From positions 3,562,001-3,626,000 of the forward strand of contig OX637402.1 in the NCBI GenBank assembly GCA_951799425.1: 64,000 nucleotides of DNA. Reading direction: 5' to 3'. The position numbers were made by a program, and so were the translations under genes. Below, one piece after another: positions 4,127 to 63,606 of this stretch (the stretch's first letter is position 1; the number at the start of each line of letters is the position of its first letter). The DNA comes from Ilex aquifolium. Lineage: Eukaryota > Streptophyta > Magnoliopsida > Aquifoliales > Aquifoliaceae. Below the pieces are notes generated by a model. The model searched no databases. It had not been told where the DNA came from and saw nothing but the letters and a program-made list of their open reading frames with translations.

Positions 4127-5046
4127 ATGGCAAATAGAGGAAGAGGACACCGGAATGGTCGAGGGAGTGGGAGGGACAACAACCAACTGCCACTGGCCTT
4201 TGATCAACAAGCATTCATGGAGGCTAATGGGCACTATGGCTGCCACCTTTATGCAAGCCAGAGCCAACATGAGCCAAGGAGGCTCGAACAACAACCAAAA
4301 TTTTTAGGCACACATGCCACTGACTTTTATGGGAGGGGCGAATATGATGGTGGCTGACCATTGGTTCCAACAAGTGGACAAGATCTTAAAGGCTATGGAG
4401 ATCACATCCGACGCCACTAAGATAAGACTAGTTTCATTCTATCTTGAGGGAGAGGCCTATCTATGGTGGGATTGGGTCAAGGCCTCGGAGAATCTTGAGG
4501 CAATAACATGGGAAGAGTTCCGTGATCTTTTTATGGGAAAGTATTTTTCGTCGGCTGTTCAGCAAGCGAAAGCCTAGGAATTCTTGCATTTGAAGTAAGG
4601 GACGGTGATGGAATAAGTGGCTACATTCATCGAGCTAACATGTTTCGCTGATACTTTCGTGGCCACAGACTTGGTCAAAGTAAGGAGGTTCAATGATGGT
4701 TTGAAGTTGTCCATCCAGGGAAAGATTGTGGGCTATCGCCTACAAGACTTGAACTCTATGGTTGAGACTGCCATGGCCATTGAGAGGAAAGTGGAAGACG
4801 CAAAGAGCATCCGAGAAGCCAGTGCTAAGGATAAGAAGTAGGAGGGTCAATCCTCTTCTTCTAGTTCGGGGAAGAAGCAAAAGACTTCTACCCCTCAAGG
4901 GCATCAAGGGCAGGGCCATGGCTATCAAGGCCAAGGCCAAGGTCAATCCTCCTAAGGTGGGAGAAATTTTAGGGCTTCCTATCAAGCTAGACAGAGGACC
5001 TGTTTCATATGTCACCAGCCGGGCCACATGAAGCGGGATTGTCCTC
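4127..5046 (+). pseudogene. gag of Tekay-A (broken)
   Basis: The start codon at 4127 opens a basic N-terminus like that of Tekay-B gag. A retrotransposon-gag domain follows, with LWWDWVK and [12 protein letters not shown] motifs near 4460-4545. Near 5000-5045 is a CCHC zinc knuckle (CFICHQPGHMKRDC), which binds nucleic acid in related gag proteins. The reading frame is broken by several stops (for example near 4576, 4597 and 4614) and by frame changes, so no full gag can be made. Confidence 0.8.
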
Positions 5047-9830: not shown

Positions 9831-12458
9831 ATGTTGAGTGAAAGAGAGGAGATGCCAGAGGCCATCAATGTTAGTGGGGAGTCAGGCAGTGTTGGAGTTG
9901 TTGATGCAATAGCTCAAGTGAACGTCGGCAAGGCAATAGGCGAGATGGGAGTTGGTGAGGAGACCCAAGCAAGCGTTAGAGGCGAGGGGACCCAAACAGC
10001 GGGTGCCGAAGGCTAGGTGACCTAGGTAGCGGGCGCCGAAGGCGAGGGAACCCAGGCAGCGGGCGCCGAAGGAGAGGTGCCATGGGCTGGCACTGATCGC
10101 GGAGGATCAGGCGGTGTTGTGCTGGTCGAAGACGGTGGAGCCCACAGGTGGCATCGCCGAATGCTAGACGTGGCCAGGTGAGTGCTCTAGCAACGTCGCT
10201 GGGCGCGGCCAGGCGGGCCCACAGGCGACGTCGCTGGGTGCGGCCAAACAAGCACGCAAGCAGCGTCGCTGGGGCTAGGGAGCAAGTAGGCGGCGTTGTG
10301 CACGATGGAAGCTGGGCACGGAGCTTCGGAGCTTAGGCACAGAGCTATGGAGCTTGGGCAAAGAGCTATGGAGCTTGGGCACCGAGCTATAGAGGAGGGT
10401 ACGCCGGGAAATGCTAGTGTTTTAGGCAGCAACAACTCCAGGCAAGTGGTGGATGGCATGACTCATTCAGGCGAAATTCCACGTAGCCATGTCCCTCAAG
10501 GTTCTCCTGGTAGTGGCCAAGGCAATATCTCGCTTCATCCTCACACCAGTAAACATCGAGGAAAGGTAGCTCTTGATGAGGATATGTCCAAAGTAAGTAC
10601 GATTTCTAGTACTCTCAATACTGATGATGACATTCTCAGGATTGTTTCCACTTATAGCATTCTTCCAACGGTGCTGTGTTGCCGAGCTGAAATGGGTGAG
10701 CCTACTTGTGATGACTCCTCTGGTGATATTTCTATTTATGAGGAGGTGCTTGAGGCAAAGCTAAGGTTTCCCATGCCTTCCTCTGTCTTTCGCATCCTCC
10801 ATTGTTTATTACTTGCACTAGGGCGCTTGGCGCTAAATGGTTGGAGAGTTCTTCCGGGATTTCTGGCACTATGGAGGAGAGTGCATCACGAGGATGCTTC
10901 TCCTGAAGATTTTTGTGCGGCCTATACTTTGAGTGAGACCCATGCACCCAATTGTGGCTGGTATTACTTCACTCTGAGGGGAAGAAAGGTGATTGTTGGG
11001 CTGCGCTCTAATTACCATAGTTGGAAAGCTCGCTTCCTCTTTGTTGGTGGAGAGTGGGTTTTAGAGGCTGACATGGATTTGGTTCCAGCGAGATGGGACA
11101 CTCCCAAGAGAATTGGTACGACTGCTTTTATTTTTCTTTACTTTTCTCGCAAACGTGTGCTTACCACATATTTTTTTCAAGCTCCCCGACACTTTCAAAA
11201 GATCAGGAATGAAAATTGCAGGCTGTGAAGGCTTATCCTGTTAAGGATTTTGGGACCCTCATGCTTAAGGACGGTGAGGCTAGGGACTCCCCTTCTTCTG
11301 GAGGTGCTAAAATTGGTGCACCCTCTTCCAAGCCTGGCAGCTCCTCTTTGAAGAGAAAGGTATGTTGATTCCCTTTAGATTTTCGTTTCTTTACTTGATT
11401 TTTCTTTAGGGTAACACTTGTCCCCTTTCTAGTGGATATGACAGTGGTGGAGTCTCGTTACTCCACTAGGAATACTCCTCCATCCAAGATGGCTAGTGTG
11501 AGTGATGTTCTGGCGAGCCCTTCTTAGATGACCCCTCAAGTGGTGTCTCCCTAGTCAGTGACTCCTTCAGAGGTTCCTGTAGTGACCGCCCCTTCAGAGA
11601 CTCCCCAGGCAACCACACCTCCTGCCCCCCATTCATCAGACCCTCATGTAGGGACTTCTAGAGGGGCTGGCTCTCAAACTGTCTCCATGCTGGATGATGT
11701 GCGGATTGTTAGGGAACGACTTGGGAGATTCGTGTTCCCTGTAGAGATTGGGTAGGTTGGTGCTCTGGGCACCGAGGGCATTATCGACACTGTCTTGGAA
11801 GGCTTGGCACAGGTAATGATTTGTTCTTTTCCTTGCCTTTGTGTTTTCTTTAGGGCGCTAACATTTCCTCATATTTTCTCAAGTTTCAGCTATGTCTATA
11901 TGCCTTTTTTCAAGGGCTATTCAGTTTAACAATCTAAGCTCGACCATTAGGGAGGAGAAGCTTGCTCATGAAGCTGTGAAAGGGGAGTTATTGGCAGCTC
12001 AGGAAAGGATTGCTAAGCGCAAGGCTGATGGTGAGGCTTTCCAGGTTGAGCTTGTGGCGGCTCGTGAGAGGGCTACGCTCAGTGAGGCTGCTTGCACGAG
12101 AGTTGAAGCAGAGCTTGTGGCGACCCGCGAGAGGGTTTCCCGAGCTGAGGCAGATCTGCAATTGGTTCATGAGAGGGCTGCTAAGGCCGAGGCTGATTCA
12201 GAGAGTGACCTTGCATATGCCTTTATTGATGGATATGAAGAGCTCCGAGGAAAGATTTCTGCTGCTTTCCCTGATATTGAATTTTCGGGTTTTGTCCCAT
12301 ATGAGGCGCCACCGGATGATGATGCTGATGATGATGATGATGATGATGATGGTGACTGTGATGGTGCAGAGGATGAGGTCGAGCAGGATGACGGTAGTGA
12401 GAGCAGTCAGAGTGCTGAGGACTTTCATTTTTTATTTTTTTTTTGGGTTGGTAGATAA
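9831..12458 (+). pseudogene. Antisense multi-exon ORF of Tat-1 (plant transposon-type protein with coiled coil)
   Basis: The plus-strand frame from 10296 runs to a region (about 10730-11113) with LRFPMPSSVFRILHCLL, NGWRVLPGF and WYYFTLRGRK. This resembles plant proteins annotated as 'putative gypsy type transposon' (PF04195-like). Candidate introns, tentative, are 11116-11181, 11360-11432 and 11813-11889 (GTAATG...TTTCAG). The last precedes an exon (11892-12458) encoding a long coiled coil of VELVAARERA-type repeats and an acidic Asp-rich tail made by GAT repeats near 12316-12350. The reading frame is not continuous: stops such as TAG at 11526 and 11552 lie in otherwise good frames. The gene opposes the element's own genes. 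Its function is unknown. The 60-62.8 kb copy has the same plan. Confidence 0.65.
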
Positions 12459-40585: not shown

Positions 40586-42313
40586 CTAAAAGAAGTTACG
40601 AACCTCCCTCAGAAATTTCTTCTTGTCCATCATGGTAAAGGATGGAGGGAGTGTACCAGTAGCAAGGAAGTTAGCAATATCAGCATACCACGGTGTCTCA
40701 TCAATCGTGAACAGCTGTTCATCGGGAAATTTCTCATTGATTGACAATCCATCTTCATGAAATTCATACGTTAATCTGGACAGATGGTCTGCCACCACAT
40801 TCTCGACACCCTTTTTGTCTTTAATGATCAGATCAAACTCTTGGAGCAAAAGTATCCATCTCAAGAGCCTTGGCTTGACATCCTTCTTTGTGAGCAAGAA
40901 TTTTAGGGCTACATGGTCAGTGAATACAGTAACAGAAGAACCAACAAGATAAGAACGAAATTTTTCCAGAGCAAAAACTACATCAAGCAATTCTTTTTCA
41001 GTTGTTGAATAATTCATTTGAGCATCATTCAAAGTTTTGCTTGCATAGTAAATCACATGAGGTTTCTTATCTTTTCTTTGTCCCAACACAGCACCTACAG
41101 CATAATCACTTGCATCACACATCAATTCAAATGGAAGAGTCCAATCAGGGGGTTGCATTATTGGAGCAGAAATTAACATGTCTTTAAGCTTGTCAAAAGC
41201 TTTCTGGCATGCTTCATTCCACATAAAAATTACATCATGACTCAAAAGATGACACATGGGTTTGGCTATGGTACTGAAATCTTTTATGAATCTCCTGTAA
41301 AAACCTGCATGTCCTAGGAATGATCGGACGTCCTTTACATTCTTAGGGGCGGGCAAATTTCCAATCAGATCTATTTTTGCCTTGTCAACTTTCATGCCCT
41401 CAGACGATACAATGTGACCAAAGACAATGCCTTGTGTTACTATGAAATGACATTTTTCCCAATTTAGCACTAGATTGGCTTCCTTACATCTAATTAGCAC
41501 ATTTTCTAGGTTGGCATCCTTCTTTGTGAGCAAGAATTTTAGGGCTGCATGGTCAGTGAATACAGTAACAGAAGAACTAACAAGATAAGAACGAAATTTT
41601 TCCAGAGCAAAAACTACAGCAAGCAATTCTTTTTCAGTTGTTGAATAATTCATTTGAGCATCATTCAAAGTTTTGATTGCATAGTAAATCACATGAGGTT
41701 TCTTATCTTTTCTTTGTCCCAACACAACACCTACAGCATAATCACTTGCATCACACATCAATTCAAATGGAAGAGTCCAATCAGGGGGTTGCATTGTTGG
41801 AGCAGAAATTAACATGTCTGTAAGCTTGTCAAAAGCTTTCTGGCATGCTTCATTCCACATAAAAATTACATCCTGACTCAAAAGATGACACATAGGTTTG
41901 GCTATGGTACTGAAATCTTTTATGAATCTCCTGTAAAAACCTGCATGTCCTAGGAATGATCGGACGTCCTTTACATTCTTAGGGGCAGGCAAATTTCCAA
42001 TCATATCTATTTTTGCCTTGTCAACTTTCATGCTCTCAGACGATACAATGTGACCAAAGACAATGCCTTGTGTTACTATGAAATGACATTTTTCCCAATT
42101 TAGCACTAGATTGGCTTCCTTACATCTGATTAGCACATTTTCTAGGTTGGCCAAACACAAATCAAATGAGTCATCATAAACAGAGAAGTCATCCATGAAT
42201 ACTTCCAAAAAAATTTCAACCATGTCACTGAACAAGCTTAACATACATCTTTGGAATGTTGCAGGAGCGTTACAAAGTCCAAATGGTATCATTTTTGAAT
42301 GCAAAAGTGCCAA
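40586..42313 (-). pseudogene. Athila-like RT end with two consecutive RNase H modules
   Basis: An uninterrupted 575-codon frame starts just before [11 protein letters not shown], carries the RT catalytic FMDD (near residue 41), then thumb, connection and RNase H (residues about 55-266). The same 212-residue module repeats (267-478), followed by the RNase H end VVADHLSRL. Each module has [15 protein letters not shown] in variant form, [33 protein letters not shown] and VFTDH, so both contain RNase H Asp-Glu-Asp; only the second has the final Asp. The modules are about 98% identical in DNA. The RT N-terminal half lies in other frames upstream, so the whole is a pseudogene, though this frame stays open. 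Confidence 0.9.
40879..42150 (-). repeat. Tandem 636-bp duplication inside Athila-like pol
   Basis: The two copies are 40879-41514 and 41515-42150. The period is exactly 636 bp (212 codons), so the reading frame is kept. I count 13 differences between the copies (about 2%). The junction on the minus strand reads [13 protein letters not shown]. The short shared string TTGGC or CATCC at the ends suggests a slipped or unequal event. Confidence 0.92.
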
Positions 42314-47467: not shown

Positions 47468-47705
47468 ACCCAACACAAAGGAAAAGAAAAAAAGAGATAA
47501 ATGAGCTAAGTCTGCTCTTTTCATATTTCAAGTTGAAGTGTCCACATCGAAGTGTCTTTTATCAAATGGGAAATTCCCTTTTTGAGAGCCATGCAGTTGT
47601 TTGGGAAGTATTATCCTAATTCAAGAAAAAAATAATCCACCCTTCCCATAAAATATCAACTGTATACATCTTTTTCGGTTTGTTTAGTTTCAGTTTTTTT
47701 TTTTC

Positions 47706-48277
47706 TGATGGTGTAATTCCATGTGAATGAGCAGCGAGTTAGAGTATAATTGCTAGGAACATATCTGAGCTACAAGGCCCGTGAATTGGTGGTTGAATGC
47801 TCTAGTTGTCCGAGGTGTGGTGTGTGTAACACGTAGAAATATAGTGGTTCACCAGCTTGGGAGCTCAGCTAGTCTACTCTTCAATGGAGTCTCTTGCTCC
47901 TAGAATCTATATTCATCTAGAAAATGTTTTACAAGATGCATTTGATGCCAGTAGGGTTCTCTGCCTCTTGATTGAGGCGCTGTACAGTATTTATAGTGTA
48001 ATTCCTATCTCTAAGGGATTTTCACCGAGATCTTTGTCCTTCATCCGTGGGATCTTCCTTGATTTTTGGGAGAGGATCTTGGTTAGTTGAGAGTTTTGTG
48101 CCTTGATTATAGCTTTCCATTGCTTTGAGGATGCCATTCACTAGCCAGCTGTTTCCCTTTCAATTTCCCGTTTGTTTTCTTTGAGGAAAGCTTGAGGTCT
48201 GGATTGCGGAGCCCTGGTTACTATGTCTGACCTCCTTGTCTGACCTCATATTTAGAGCTTTTTTCTAGGTATCATCA
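47706..48277 (-). repeat. 3' LTR of Tat-3
   Basis: 572 bp, TGATGGTGTAATTCC to TAGGTATCATCA on the plus strand. A minus-strand TATA box (CACTATAAATACTG) is near 47990-48003. The adjoining minus-strand GGGTTGGGGGGCAAC is the purine tract. Confidence 0.92.
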
Positions 48278-48509
48278 GTTGCCCCCCAACCCTTGGCCCA
48301 AGCGAGCTTGGGCAGGGGCTGAGTCGATGCTGAATTGAGATAGACTTCCACACATCGACCTCGATTTGCATGAGCTCGAGGTGCAGAGAGCTGCTGCTTT
48401 TCCTACGGTTGCCGAGTTCCCAGTTGTTCTCATTGCTTCGAGAAGTGCTTCTTAAAGCAAAATTATTGACTTTATGAGCTGCCGGACTTTTTTTTTTTAT
48501 GAACTAGGG

Positions 48510-49345
48510 AACTCATCATGAGCTTCAGGGCTCTTTTAAGGAATTAAAGAATTCATTATGAGCTACAAGGCTCTTTTTAGGAATTAAATAGCCCATTCCG
48601 AGCTCCTAGGCTCTTTTCTGAACTATTGGAGTTCTTCGTGGGCTGTGTTGCTCATATCATGAACTGAATAGTTCAGCGCGAGCTACGTGGCTCATATTAT
48701 GAGCTGAAGAGTTCAGCGTGAGCTGTTTGGCTCAAGTTATGAACTGAATAGTTCATCGTGAGCTACGTGGCTCAAGTTATGAACTGAAGAGTTCATCGTG
48801 AGCTGCTTGGCTCAAGTTATGAACTGAAGAGTTCGTCGTGAGCTGCGTGGCTCAAGTTATGAACTAAAGAGTTCATCGTGAGCTGCTTGGCTCAAGTTAT
48901 GAACTGAATAGTTCATCGTGAGCTGCGTGGCTCAAGTTATGAACTGAAGAGTTCATCGTGAGCTGCGTGGCTCAAGTTACGAACTGAAGAGTTCATCGTG
49001 AGCTGCTTGGCTCAAGTTATGAACTGAATAGTTCATCGTGAGCTGCGTGGCTCAAGTTATGAACTGAAGAGTTCATCGTGAGCTGCTTGGCTCAAGTTAT
49101 GAACTGAAGAGCTCATCTTGAATTTATGAGCTGAAGAGCTCATCGGATGTTTATGAGCTGAAGAGCTTATCTTGAGTTCATGAGCTGAAGAGCTCATCTT
49201 AAATTTATGAGCTGAAGAGCTCATCGGATGTTTATGAGCTGAAGAGCTCATCGGATGTTTATGAGCTGAAGAGCACATCTTGAATTTATGAGCTGAAGAG
49301 CTCATCGGATGTTCATGAGCTGAAGAGCTCGTCTCGTTCTCTGAC
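48510..49345 (-). repeat. Hairpin tandem arrays in Tat-3 (40-bp and 27-bp units)
   Basis: Regular 40-bp units run from about 48650 to 49110 (about eleven copies). Each holds two small inverted repeats, GAACTGAAGAGTTC and GAGCTGCTTGGCTC. From 49110 to 49345 the unit becomes 27 bp with TGAGCTGAAGAGCTCA, a 6-bp stem with a GAAG loop. Degenerate units extend left to about 48510. The 27-bp part is an open frame on the minus strand (MSSSAHK repeats). Confidence 0.9.
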
Positions 49346-50559: not shown

Positions 50560-50621
50560 CAGTCACTGAGAGATCAGCTTATTTGTAACAGGAACAGTCG
50601 TTCCCACAGACGGCGCCAAAC

Positions 50622-51193
50622 TGATGGTGTAATTCCACGTGAATGAGCAGCGAGTTAGAGTATAATTGCTAGGAACAGATCTGAGCTACAAGGCCCGTGA
50701 ATTGGTGGTTGAATGCTCTAGTTGTCCGAGGTGTGGTGTGTGTAACACGTAGAAATATAGTGGTTCACCGGCTTGGGAGTTCGGCTAGTCTACTCTTCAA
50801 TGGAGTCTCTTGCTCCTAGAATCTATATTCATCTAGAAAATGTTTTACAAGATGCATTTGATGCCAGTAGGGTTCTCTGCCTCTTGATTGAGGCGATGTA
50901 CAGTATTTATAGTGTAATTCCTATCTCTAAGGGATTTTCACCGAGATCTTTGCCCTTCATCCGTGGGATCTTCCTTGATTTTTGGGAGAGGATCTTGGTT
51001 AGTTGAGAGTTTTGTGCCTTGATTATAGCTTTCCATTGCTTTGAGGATGTCATTCACTAGCCAGCTGTTTCCCTTTCAATTTCCCGTTTGTTTTCTTTGA
51101 GGAGAGCTTAAGGTCTGGATTGCGGAGCCCTGGTTACTGTGTCTGACCTCCTTGTCTGACCTCATACTTAGAGCTTTTTTCTAGGTATCATCA
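50622..51193 (-). repeat. 5' LTR of Tat-3
   Basis: 572 bp, same ends as the 3' LTR. Directly left (in the element's sense, downstream) is TTTGGCGCCGTCTGTGGG, the primer-site region usual in Tat elements. Right of it is the duplication TTTTC. Confidence 0.92.
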
Positions 51194-52459
51194 TTTTCCA
51201 TTTGTTTTTCATTTGAATTCTTTTGTTTATTAGTCTTATTTTTTACTTATAATTTAGGATTTCATATTGACATCGATTGAGAGGAGTGGATAGAAGCTTA
51301 GTTTCGACCACAAGGTGATCACAATACACATATTTCCTATTATTTCTCTATGTTGATCCTACATTTATTGGAACTTCAATTCATTCATTATCTGTTTGTA
51401 AAGTGTATGGAATTTCTGTTGGAAATTAGGTTAGAATTCATGAATTCGGTATATATTTTTGTTTAGTTTTTTGGGTGAATGTAAAGTATATACTACCGGA
51501 GATTTCAAATGTAAATAGGTTTTTGTTTAGTCCTTTGGATTCATAACATTGTTTTTGTCATTCTATGAGCTCTATATGTGTGGATGATGTGCGAATAACT
51601 TTAGGAAACCATTCTCTAACTTTGATTTATTTATTTATTTATTGTTTCACATTTGTTTACGTCGTGTTTTTCTTAAGATTGAATACACATTGATATTTTG
51701 TAGGATTTTATTTTTAGAGAAAAGTTTCCTAAATTTTTTTAAAAAATAATAGGTCTTAATTTTTTACATAATACCTTTAGACACGAGGGCATTAACTAGT
51801 ATTTATGTAATTTGAATTTCAAATTCCAATAGTTATTTCATGGCGATTATTCATGGTGGTTATTCATGTTTATATAAAAAAGGTCCTGTATAATAGATTA
51901 TTTAACTCAATTTTCATTGTTTAGTTTGTAAACAATTTAAAATGAGGCTTTATTGTATCTAAAAATAGATTTATCAGAAATCTATTAGCAAACTTACCAT
52001 GGAGACAAATATCAATTTAAAGAAAGCTATCGTACTTCAAAATCTGCAAATTATTTTATTCATACATTATCCCAAACCTATTTTTCTAACTAAAAAAAGA
52101 AAAATTCAGCAACCCATTCTTGTTTATGGTGTCCATGCCTTATGCCCATTGTCTTCTTTCACTTCATTCCTCACTCTGACTACTTGTTTCTATACAATTG
52201 GCTTCAAAGCCCATTAAAATAATTCAACATTTACCTCTAGGTCCATCTGTGTGTGTGGACATTTAAGAGAGAGGGAGAGAGAGAGATTGATCAGGAACTC
52301 AGAAAATAAGTAGAATTTTTATAAGTTGTAACTTGGGTTGGGTACGTAGAAGTGGTTTCCTCACTTTAATTTAGAGGTGCACAGAAGCACTAAAACGGGG
52401 CTTATTAGATATCATACAGCGATCTCATCTCATCTTTCAGAATTTGCATGCATTCACAT
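51194..52459. other. Unassigned AT-rich sequence beside the defensin gene
   Basis: Contains a GA-rich microsatellite-like tract (52265-52290) and scattered T-rich stretches. On the minus strand just below the defensin stop, AATAAG near 52407-52412 may serve as a polyadenylation signal. No other gene is visible. Confidence 0.5.
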
Positions 52460-52638
52460 TCACTTGCAAGGTTTGTAGCAATAGCATCGACGTCGGATTC
52501 CCTTGCAGTGTCCGCCATTGATGCCGCCCTCTTTCATGCAAGCGGTTGCGCAGCTGCTGTCACTCAAACAGTGTCCCCACGAGTGTTGGCTCTTAAACTG
52601 GCATAACTTCACCGCCTTGGCCCTCATTGGACCCATTT
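52460..52638 (-). CDS. Defensin exon 2: mature peptide
   Basis: 58 codons and a TGA stop. After MGPMRAKAVK comes the cysteine-stabilised alpha-beta core. Eight cysteines are present, expected to form four disulfides, with the conserved GxC pair (HC before KGIRRRC) of the gamma-core and a basic RRR loop. Nothing in this exon is broken. Splice acceptor TTTAACAG precedes it on the minus strand. Confidence 0.92.
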
Positions 52639-52816
52639 CTGTTAAACATTATTTAACGAATAAAATTAATCAAAAAGACTTAACGTACTGTGTGAAATAA
52701 ATCAGAAGATCGACTCAATTGCAGTTCATTTAGTTTTATTGGTGCGGTGCAACATTGAAAATTTGATCAGACAAGAGAGAATAACCAGTGGTCATGATAA
52801 GCATCAGCAGTAGGAC

Positions 52817-53654
52817 CATGGTTCTGAATAACGGTAACGGTTATCGTAACGGTAACGGTAACGTTGTAACGGACGCGGGGTGAAACGGGCGTTACGTAAC
52901 GGTAACGGAAACCGAATGCGTGAATTTTTTTTTTGAACACACAACCTCCCATAAAACATGAATATTTACATATTTCAACTTAAAATCATGCAAATATGGG
53001 TGTTTAGTGATTTAGTGCATTTTATTGTATCATGAACATGATAATAAAATATCATAAATATTAATAATATATCTCAAGTCACTATGCATCAGTGACCTTT
53101 CCATTAGCAACAATTTAACAAATAAAATGCACAATTACAAATCTAACAATTTATTAAATGAAACATATTGATAGAACCAAAATGACACAAACGATTATAA
53201 AATTGACACGATTATTAAATACGCATAATAAATAATTTATACTAATGTTTAATATTTAGAACACAATAAATATTTTTTTTTTGTGGGTCTTGACTTTTGT
53301 CATGAATACGACACGATTGATACCCTTAATTGTGATACACATGTCAACTCCATTAAAATAATTAATAAATTCTGTTAAAATTATTTAATTAAACACATGT
53401 TTTATTTGACTAAAAATATATCTCAAACATACCATTATAAATTTATAATATCTAAAGATCTAAAGAGATAAGACAACATTAATGTCATTAAACCACAAAA
53501 ACAAAAACAAAAAAATAATAAAATAAAATAAAGAAAGTGGCAGTGGCAACAGGTAAGTCATTATAACCACACAAAAAAAAACAAAAAAAAAAAAAAAAGA
53601 AAGAGGCGGTGGTAAGTAACAGCTACAGCTAAGTCATTATATCCACATAAACAA

Positions 53655-53694
<40 letters not shown>

Positions 53695-54277
53695 AGAAGA
53701 GGCAGTCGGTGTCATTATATCCACATAAACAAAGCCACAAAAAAAAAAAAGAAGAAGAGGCAGTCGGTTACCAGGAGAAGAGGCAGTCGGTGCTACGCAG
53801 AACACGATGGGGCTACGCAGAACAGGGGATCAACTCGTCTTCGATCGTCCAAAGCAAGCAGCGACCACACCGACTAGAAGAGACCACAGATCTGAATACT
53901 GGTCAAGGTTTCGAGTAGGGGCTCAAATTTTTTGGAAGATCTAGAAATTTTTTGGAAGAGATCATAGATCTGATCACAGGTGCGTTTTTAAGTTTTTATT
54001 TGAAAGATTTTCTAGATCTAAACATGTATTTGAGTGAGTGTTGGTTGAATTTGGGGCTGAAATTGATTTTTGGGGCTGAAATTTGGGTTTTATACTCAAA
54101 ATTTTCGGGTTGTAACGGGTCAAAGCGGGCGTTACGGGGCCGTTACGGAACGGTAACGGCCGCTACGACTGTGAAATTCATTCTTCCCGTTATATCGGGC
54201 TGTAACGGAATCAGACCCCGCCGTTACTGTTACGTAACGGCCGTTACGCGCCGTAACGGCCGATTTTCAAAACCATG
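52817..54277. mobile_element. Non-autonomous hAT-like element with GTAACGG repeats
   Basis: 1461 bp, flanked by a perfect 8-bp duplication AGTAGGAC (52809-52816 and 54278-54285), the length made by hAT transposases. The ends are inverted: CATGGTTCTGAA on the left and CATGGTTTTGAA reading in from the right. Next to both ends are clusters of GTAACGG and its complement CCGTTAC (52830-52915 and 54110-54262), likely transposase-binding subterminal repeats. The interior is AT-rich with poly(A)-containing repeats and has no transposase. It lies within defensin exon 1. Confidence 0.9.
53480..53800. repeat. A-rich direct repeats inside the hAT-like element
   Basis: Two to three copies of a unit with TCATTATATCCACATAAACA, a run of A of varied length and GAAGAAGAGGCAGTCGGT. 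The A-runs reach over 30 bp near 53660-53690. Confidence 0.75.
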
Positions 54278-54355
54278 AGTAGGACAGCTGTTGAAAGAAA
54301 ACTCATGGCGCCCTTCATCTTGAGAGAGAGAGAGAGCAAAGTGCTTGGAATGGCC

Positions 54356-54531
54356 GGCAATGCTTGTCATTTGTAAGGGTGGCCTTGTTAGCCTTGCCAC
54401 ATAGGTGCTTAGAAGTTGCAACAAATGTCACTTCCCATGATCAATGCACAAGGTCTAGAGACAAGTCTGTCTGAGGATAGAGGCAGTGCTTGTCCTTGTA
54501 AGGGAGGCACTGTTACTGTTAGCCACGTACC
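54356..54531. repeat. Imperfect direct repeat upstream of the defensin gene
   Basis: GGCAATGCTTGTCATTTGTA at 54357 and GGCAGTGCTTGTCCTTGTAA at 54482 begin two copies of a roughly 50-bp block that both contain AAGGG(T/A)GGC and GTTAGCC. They lie in the presumed promoter of the minus-strand defensin gene. A regulatory role is possible but unproven. Confidence 0.6.
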
Positions 54532-54698: not shown

Positions 54699-54873
54699 GT
54701 TAGTAAATTAGATAATTTTTTTAGGCTCTAATAATATTACTCACCAATCGAATCATGGTATCGAAAAAAATTAATATTGTATTTCAGATTTTGTTTAGTA
54801 AAAACGTCATACTTGTACATTTATCTTATTTTTAAATTGAGCAATAATATATGGACTTAAAAAATAGACTTAA

Positions 54874-55205
54874 CACTGCAAGAAAAAAACTTTTACCGGC
54901 GTTTATTAAACCAAGCTAAAATGTAAATAAACGCTGCAAAATATTATTATTGACGTTTGTTATTAATGTCGTTGAAACCTCCGTCGAAAAAATTACCGGC
55001 GTATAATTAAACGCCACAAAAATTAAAGTGACGTTTGCTAAACATTGAAGCGACGCTTTTTTAATCGATGATTTCATTATAAAATTCGGGTGACCGGAGC
55101 TATTTTACGGCGTTTATTTAAACGCCAATAATTATTATTTCTGAGCAATTGGTTTCCGGTGTTTATGCGTTTAAATAAACGCCGGTAATGATAATTAATA
55201 TTTTT
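54874..55205. repeat. CACTA terminal and subterminal repeat region
   Basis: After the terminal CACTG come motifs ACCGGCGTTTATTAAACC, GGCGTATAATTAAACGCC, GGCGTTTATTTAAACGCC and TTTAAATAAACGCCGGTAA. Most are palindromic around TTTAAA or TTATTAA. In CACTA elements such motifs are bound by the element's own protein. Confidence 0.7.
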
Positions 55206-63194: not shown

Positions 63195-63606
63195 GGCTCA
63201 CTGTTTTATGAGCTGAATGGCTCATTTCAGTTTGCTGATGATCTCATCGTTAGTCTATGAGTTGAAGAGCTCATCATTTTTTTATGAGCTAAAGAGCTCA
63301 TTGTTTGTTTATGAGTTGAAGAGCTCATCGTGTGTTTATGAGTTGAAGAGTTCATCGTGTGTTTATGAGCTGAAGAACTCATCGTTTATTTATGAGCAAG
63401 GGAGCTCATCATTTGTTTATGAGCTGAAGAGCTCATCGTTTATTAATGAGCTGAAGAGCTCATCGCTTGTTTATGAGTTGAAGAGCTCATCATTTGTTTA
63501 TGAGCTGGGGAGCTCATCATTTATTTATGACCTGAAGAGCTCATCATTTATTTATGAACTAGGGAGCTCATCGTTTATTTATGAGCTGAAGAGCTCATCG
63601 TTTAGC
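63195..63606 (+). repeat. 27-bp hairpin tandem array in Tat-4
   Basis: About fourteen units of GAGCTGAAGAGCTCATCGTT plus TATTTAT. Each has TGAGCTGAAGAGCTCA (6-bp stem, GAAG loop). The unit is 9 codons and the array is open in the plus strand (YELKSSSFV repeats). It is inverted relative to gag compared with the array in Tat-3. Confidence 0.9.

Follow-up and report, generated by a model that had tools for sequence, protein, structure and literature searches.

A plant defensin gene on the minus strand of chromosome 12 of holly, Ilex aquifolium, is interrupted in its first exon by a 1461-bp transposable element. With a probability of roughly 0.8 this is a genuine defensin gene whose exon 1 was hit by a deletion derivative of a hAT transposon, and on sequence grounds the allele would be expected to be null. 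In the most likely account, one of 21 defensin-like loci in the genome has been knocked out, and recently. The structure of the gene, the anatomy of the insertion, the identity of the element and the stop codon reached on reading into it are all directly visible in the DNA. The stretch analysed, called the window here, is 64 kb long and spans positions 3562001-3626000 of this chromosome in assembly drIleAqui2.1, for which PMC11109700 gives 34.75 Mb for chromosome 12 and 800.0 Mb in 104 scaffolds overall.

Read in the direction of the gene, the coding sequence opens at a native ATG (54318-54316). The first part of exon 1 (54278..54318) ends in eight bases that form one copy of a target-site duplication. 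The second part (52786..52808) carries the end of the signal peptide and closes in phase 1, and is followed by a GT-AG intron of 147 nt (52639..52785) and by exon 2 (52460..52638), which encodes the end of the propeptide and the defensin domain. Exon 2 contains 58 codons after the split codon and then a TGA (52462-52460); its translation is MGPMRAKAVKLCQFKSQHSWGHCLSDSSCATACMKEGGINGGHCKGIRRRCYCYKPCK. The plan of a secreted precursor is readable here, with a putative signal-peptide exon 1 (interrupted), a phase-1 intron and the mature domain in exon 2; the signal peptide is assigned by homology and hydropathy. The 5' leader and proximal promoter (54319..54430) are CT-rich beside the ATG. Homology of the leader to two paralogues extends to 54336 by BLASTN, and farther upstream a three-way alignment finds a weaker core common to the gene and two paralogues. 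A 20-bp motif also occurs twice just upstream of the start (54371-54390 and 54496-54515, 125 bp apart, 85% alike), and the copy closer to the start partly coincides with a short sequence that is conserved upstream of two paralogues.

The assignment of exon 2 to the plant defensins, made in an earlier note from the letters of the DNA, is supported by Pfam, by PDB sequences, by a fold model and by further copies in the genome. Exon 2 matches PF00304 (Gamma-thionin) with 46.9 bits against a cut-off of 25.1, over profile positions 1-47 of 47, and 16 distinct PDB sequences match it at E <= 0.001, all named as defensins, gamma-thionins or similar. These matches, together with the homology of exon 1 to that of a paralogue on chromosome 17, are not a chance resemblance. 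The defensin gamma-core motif is GxC-x(3-9)-C, and exon 2 has it as GxC-x6-C together with eight cysteines. In an alignment of the gene with seven paralogues the eight cysteines are invariant and the defensin spacing is confirmed, at 10,5,3,10,6,1,3 in the gene and 10,5,3,9,6,1,3 in the seven paralogues. Modelled with the seven paralogue rows, exon 2 is predicted to adopt a defensin-like CS-alpha-beta fold (mean pLDDT 73.5, pTM 0.52), with one helix and three strands (E11-15 H26-37 E42-45 E50-56), the composition described for this fold in plant defensins (PMC11174490). The model matches ten PDB chains at E <= 0.001, each a plant defensin or gamma-thionin, with a best TM of 0.73 by query length; plant defensins rank first, and scorpion toxins of related fold stand lower in the ranking at E > 0.1. 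A search of a 5.8-billion-protein set with exon 2 found no relative. Grapevine VvK1 (7c31), tomato TPP3 (4uj0) and NaD1 have the eight cysteines and gamma-core of the holly gene, and likewise the CS-alpha-beta fold (predicted for holly), the signal-peptide exon and the phase-1 intron. Unlike these, the holly gene has an interrupted exon 1.

Intact relatives of the gene are found elsewhere in the genome. A search with exon 2 gave 13 places, the gene itself and 12 others, and a family-profile search gave 21 defensin-like places including this gene, all above the cut-off and free of inner stops. An uninterrupted paralogue, which the earlier note proposed to look for in the same genome, lies on chromosome 17 (C17:13676707-13677069; L030/L042). 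Its exon 2 (C17:13676905-13677069) is the nearest to that of the gene at 67% identity, and its exon 1 begins at C17:13676707 with a hydrophobic leader and runs without a break to an intron of 132 nt, in the same phase and place as the 147-nt intron of the gene. The two therefore share the exon-intron plan, with homologous signal peptide and leader, and differ in the insertion. The second-nearest paralogue, C12:3477451 (56%), likewise has an exon 1 that reads uninterrupted; of the several candidates for this exon, the one homologous to the window was taken, irrespective of rank. The intron is put at about 2.1 kb from where exon 2 matches, the acceptor pattern search having hit a similar site farther upstream (2039 nt). 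A stretch of about 4 kb on C4, from position 51726526 onward (L061/L038, with L058 and L067 as neighbours), holds three places with a defensin domain, and the open frame of the third continues into a tail of 207 residues, 43% of them proline. Art v 1 and other pollen allergens of the Asteraceae have this architecture; allergenic members have so far come exclusively from the pollen of some Asteraceae weeds, as stated in a review (PMC10281898).

The insert (52817..54277, in the same orientation as the gene) is bounded by two identical copies of AGTAGGAC, at 54278..54285 and 52809..52816 on the plus strand, with 1461 bp between them. The reverse complement of AGTAGGAC is absent throughout the 64-kb window. 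Setting the insert aside restores exon 1, as the earlier note had argued: positions 54281-54336 align at 82% to 4690-4745 of the region holding the chromosome 17 paralogue (L042), and 52772-52816 align at 82% to 4741-4784 of the same region. These adjoining stretches overlap by a few bases, as the 8-bp duplication predicts. Together the insert and the duplication add 1469 bp, which is not a multiple of three. A hAT transposon of a multi-copy family would have landed in exon 1, within the codons of the signal peptide, and would have duplicated eight bases of its target. The two parts of exon 1 could instead have been joined from different loci by an assembly error. Against this, a perfect 8-bp duplication, like those around other copies of the element, stands exactly at the breaks, both flanks align to one paralogue at adjoining positions, and among the candidates scored neither exon 2 nor the near upstream flank has a second, near-identical copy. 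Nothing was found in favour of such an artefact, which is extremely improbable and was set aside.

The insert belongs to a family with many members in the genome. A search with it, in which 40 of 797 candidates were scored, gave at least 62 matching rows; 20 element regions were retrieved, and the ends were inspected in 16. Exact 8-bp duplications flank 13 of these 16 other copies, and in one more (L026) seven of the eight bases agree; no duplication was found at L012 and L017, where the ends could not be delimited. The inverted ends of the insert are CATGGTTCTGAAT and CATGGTTTTGAAA, and TTCAGAACCATG terminates 15 of the 16 inspected copies. Nine of the 20 regions hold sequence from both ends of the element, some 5 to 6 kb apart; in one of the nine the first 34 bases are missing. 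When seven frames from four of these longer copies were scanned for transposase domains, the hAT dimerisation domain PF05699 (Dimer_Tnp_hAT) was detected in L014, L009 and L018, DUF659 (PF04937) in L014, L011 and L009, and a BED finger (PF02892) in one of the seven frames (L009 only). Typical hAT transposases are described as having a BED finger and, at the C-terminus, a dimerisation domain (PMC3499209). Identification of the insert as a hAT element, by its likeness to copies with 8-bp duplications and transposase domains, is supported, and what had been called hAT-like can be named as hAT by the proteins of its relatives.

The ends of the insert carry clusters of a short motif. All 16 of its TAACGG/CCGTTA motifs, counted on both strands, lie in the terminal regions: nine at 54113..54259, toward the native ATG (element positions 19-165), and seven at 52829..52908, at the other end (element positions 1370-1449). 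The transposase of Ac binds AAACGG repeats near the ends of Ac, and by analogy the terminal arrangement in holly would fit a hAT element. The insert thus shares with the hAT superfamily the 8-bp target duplication, short terminal inverted repeats and subterminal motif clusters, and its longer relatives share the BED and hAT-dimerisation domains. The holly family differs in its extreme ends, which read CATGG, CAGGG or CAAGG, and in the BED finger, found in only one of the seven frames scanned.

The resident copy is non-autonomous, an internal deletion derivative of a transposase-coding element of about 5.2 kb. Its deletion junction lies at 53183..53184 (element positions 1094/1095) and joins sequences that are about 3.7 kb apart in the parent, so that the derivative lacks roughly this length; two bases, TC, are common to both sides of the junction in the longer copies shown. 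Ac/Ds comprises full-length and deleted hAT copies, and the relation between the parent of about 5.2 kb and the 1461-bp holly derivative is of this kind. When a 181-bp query across the junction was searched against the genome, the window alone crossed the junction among the 40 scored of 613 candidates, and the other 39 scored matches stopped or started at the junction or within 18 bases of it; as far as scored, the derivative is therefore single in the assembly. The occurrence of the junction at this site alone suggests one of two histories: a full-length element arrived and its middle was then lost in situ, or the derivative itself moved only once. The copy L017 (C9) was considered as a sharer of the junction and rejected, since its sequence continues beyond that point and its match stops at query position 97.

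The earlier note took the undamaged coding sequence as a hint that the insertion may be recent. That is weak evidence, because few damaging changes are expected in an exon of only 58 codons; the suggestion itself fits the differences private to the element copy. Four are found in 999 aligned bases (1 of 369, 2 of 340 and 1 of 290), counted against 17, 18 and 14 comparison copies, and the branch lengths of the window copy are 0.009, 0.010 and 0.005. L017 is the nearest copy, differing by 1.2% and 1.4% in the 340- and 290-base stretches; its own private count of 36 in 369 is put down to a non-homologous stretch past the junction. At substitution rates between about 2.5e-9 and 1.3e-8 per site and year, the differences of the window copy very roughly give an upper bound of 0.3 to 4 million years for the time spent at the site. 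The low count does not prove a young insertion, because the element may predate its stay there.

The gene itself may have been decaying before the element came, the insertion then being a passenger. Between cysteines 4 and 5, exon 2 carries 10 residues, one more than the 9 of the seven aligned paralogues; two phenylalanines kept in all seven are absent from it, and a TATA box is not clear in the gene where one paralogue carries TTTATTTATAAGG. Against this, exon 2 is without stop or frameshift and the splice sites are intact. On the branch leading to the gene (56 codons), dN is 0.089 and dS 0.398, so that dN/dS is about 0.22, near the 0.25 of the chromosome 17 paralogue and below the 0.55 of the second chromosome 12 gene, with few codons and a wide range behind the comparison. 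A codon bootstrap of the gene-branch value spans 0.05-1.07 (1957 usable replicates of 2000), and 2.7% of replicates are at or above 1. Within the limits set by so few codons and so wide a bootstrap range, the ratio suggests a gene constrained for most of its history, and prior decay is quite unlikely.

On the preferred reading, that of a functional gene disabled by the insertion, the consequence follows from what a native transcript would meet inside the element. Read from the native ATG, the frame continues into the element and meets a stop after 24 residues in all. Four AATAAA signals lie in the gene sense within the element, at 54000, 53406, 53155 and 53026. Transcripts from the native promoter would thus translate only 24 residues and would probably end at the polyadenylation signals of the element. 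With so short a read-in and probable polyadenylation in the element, this allele would secrete no defensin; the intact relatives remain.

The insertion could also have re-tooled the gene. A transcript started in the element, or spliced within it, might use a candidate acceptor in its end (52824..52825, minus strand), where TTATTCAG is followed by AACCATGG, and be translated from the ATG that the terminal repeat supplies in AACCATGG (52817..52819); the product would be a defensin precursor whose signal peptide is shortened and starts inside the hAT end. This ATG, starting at 52819, is in frame with the remainder of exon 1, and the phase-1 intron carries the frame on into exon 2, although an in-frame ATG arises by chance one time in three. 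By a crude score the AG beside it comes out top among 65 such sites, and upstream, at 53432, there is a fair candidate donor. The scoring relied on approximate plant frequencies for donors and on the analysts' own weights for acceptors, and it discriminates poorly, because the native acceptor ranks only 18th of the 65. The longer copies encode their transposase in the direction in which the defensin gene is read, which would suit such a transcript, but many upstream ATGs and the four AATAAA signals precede the ATG at 52819. The eight-residue core of the shortened leader keeps most of its hydrophobicity, with a mean hydropathy of 3.46 where two intact paralogues have 3.70 and 3.75; over 12 residues it is clearly less hydrophobic (2.06, against 2.69 and 2.73), and it is without a positively charged start. 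Re-tooling of the gene in this way is unlikely. It is similarly doubtful that the hAT terminal repeat acts as a translation-start cassette, yielding an in-frame, element-started and still secreted defensin under altered expression control. If true, this would be a regulatory reinvention and not a knock-out, and the acceptor-plus-ATG of the terminal repeat offers a small testable idea on hAT ends recruited as gene starts.

The surroundings of the gene are rich in repeats. The earlier note could support this gene as the only host gene in the window. There are 21 stop-to-stop frames of at least 150 amino acids, and of the 19 scanned, ten have transposable-element domains and nine have no match; no host domain was found in these 19, although genes with short exons could be missed. 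Rfam and tRNA scans of the 64-kb window were empty. At 10290-11228, in a GC-rich stretch, there is an open frame of 312 residues that overlaps a tandem repeat and has no Pfam match. A 641-bp tandem duplication (40875-42151, 97.8%) lies within the reverse-transcriptase/RNase H part of a retrotransposon frame. Two direct repeats of 579 bp (47705-48283 and 50621-51199, 97.6% identical) resemble the LTRs of a short retroelement; the pair ends about 1.3 kb downstream of the defensin stop, and arrays of 40-bp and 27-bp units lie between the repeats. Related 27-bp tandem arrays at 49097-49334 and 63234-63603 are about 14 kb apart and about 80% alike, the second overlapping a frame with a gag domain. 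Upstream of the defensin, an interspersed repeat begins about 0.55 kb away (from 54869-55000 onward); 39 other scored places match it at 84-93%, with 40 of 383 candidates scored.

That one gene of a defensin family should harbour a hAT deletion derivative is, biologically, a familiar kind of event. In the literature searches, the matches listed for Ilex and defensin were unrelated, judged by title and the start of the abstract, and the match for defensin, hAT and transposon insertion concerns torenia flower colour; both statements apply to those matches alone. As a marker, the insertion is a clean presence/absence character within a family of plant immune peptides, and it suggests that a hAT family has been active recently enough to alter a holly gene. 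If the insertion segregates, holly would offer a natural null and intact alleles of one defensin, and with them a direct test of redundancy.
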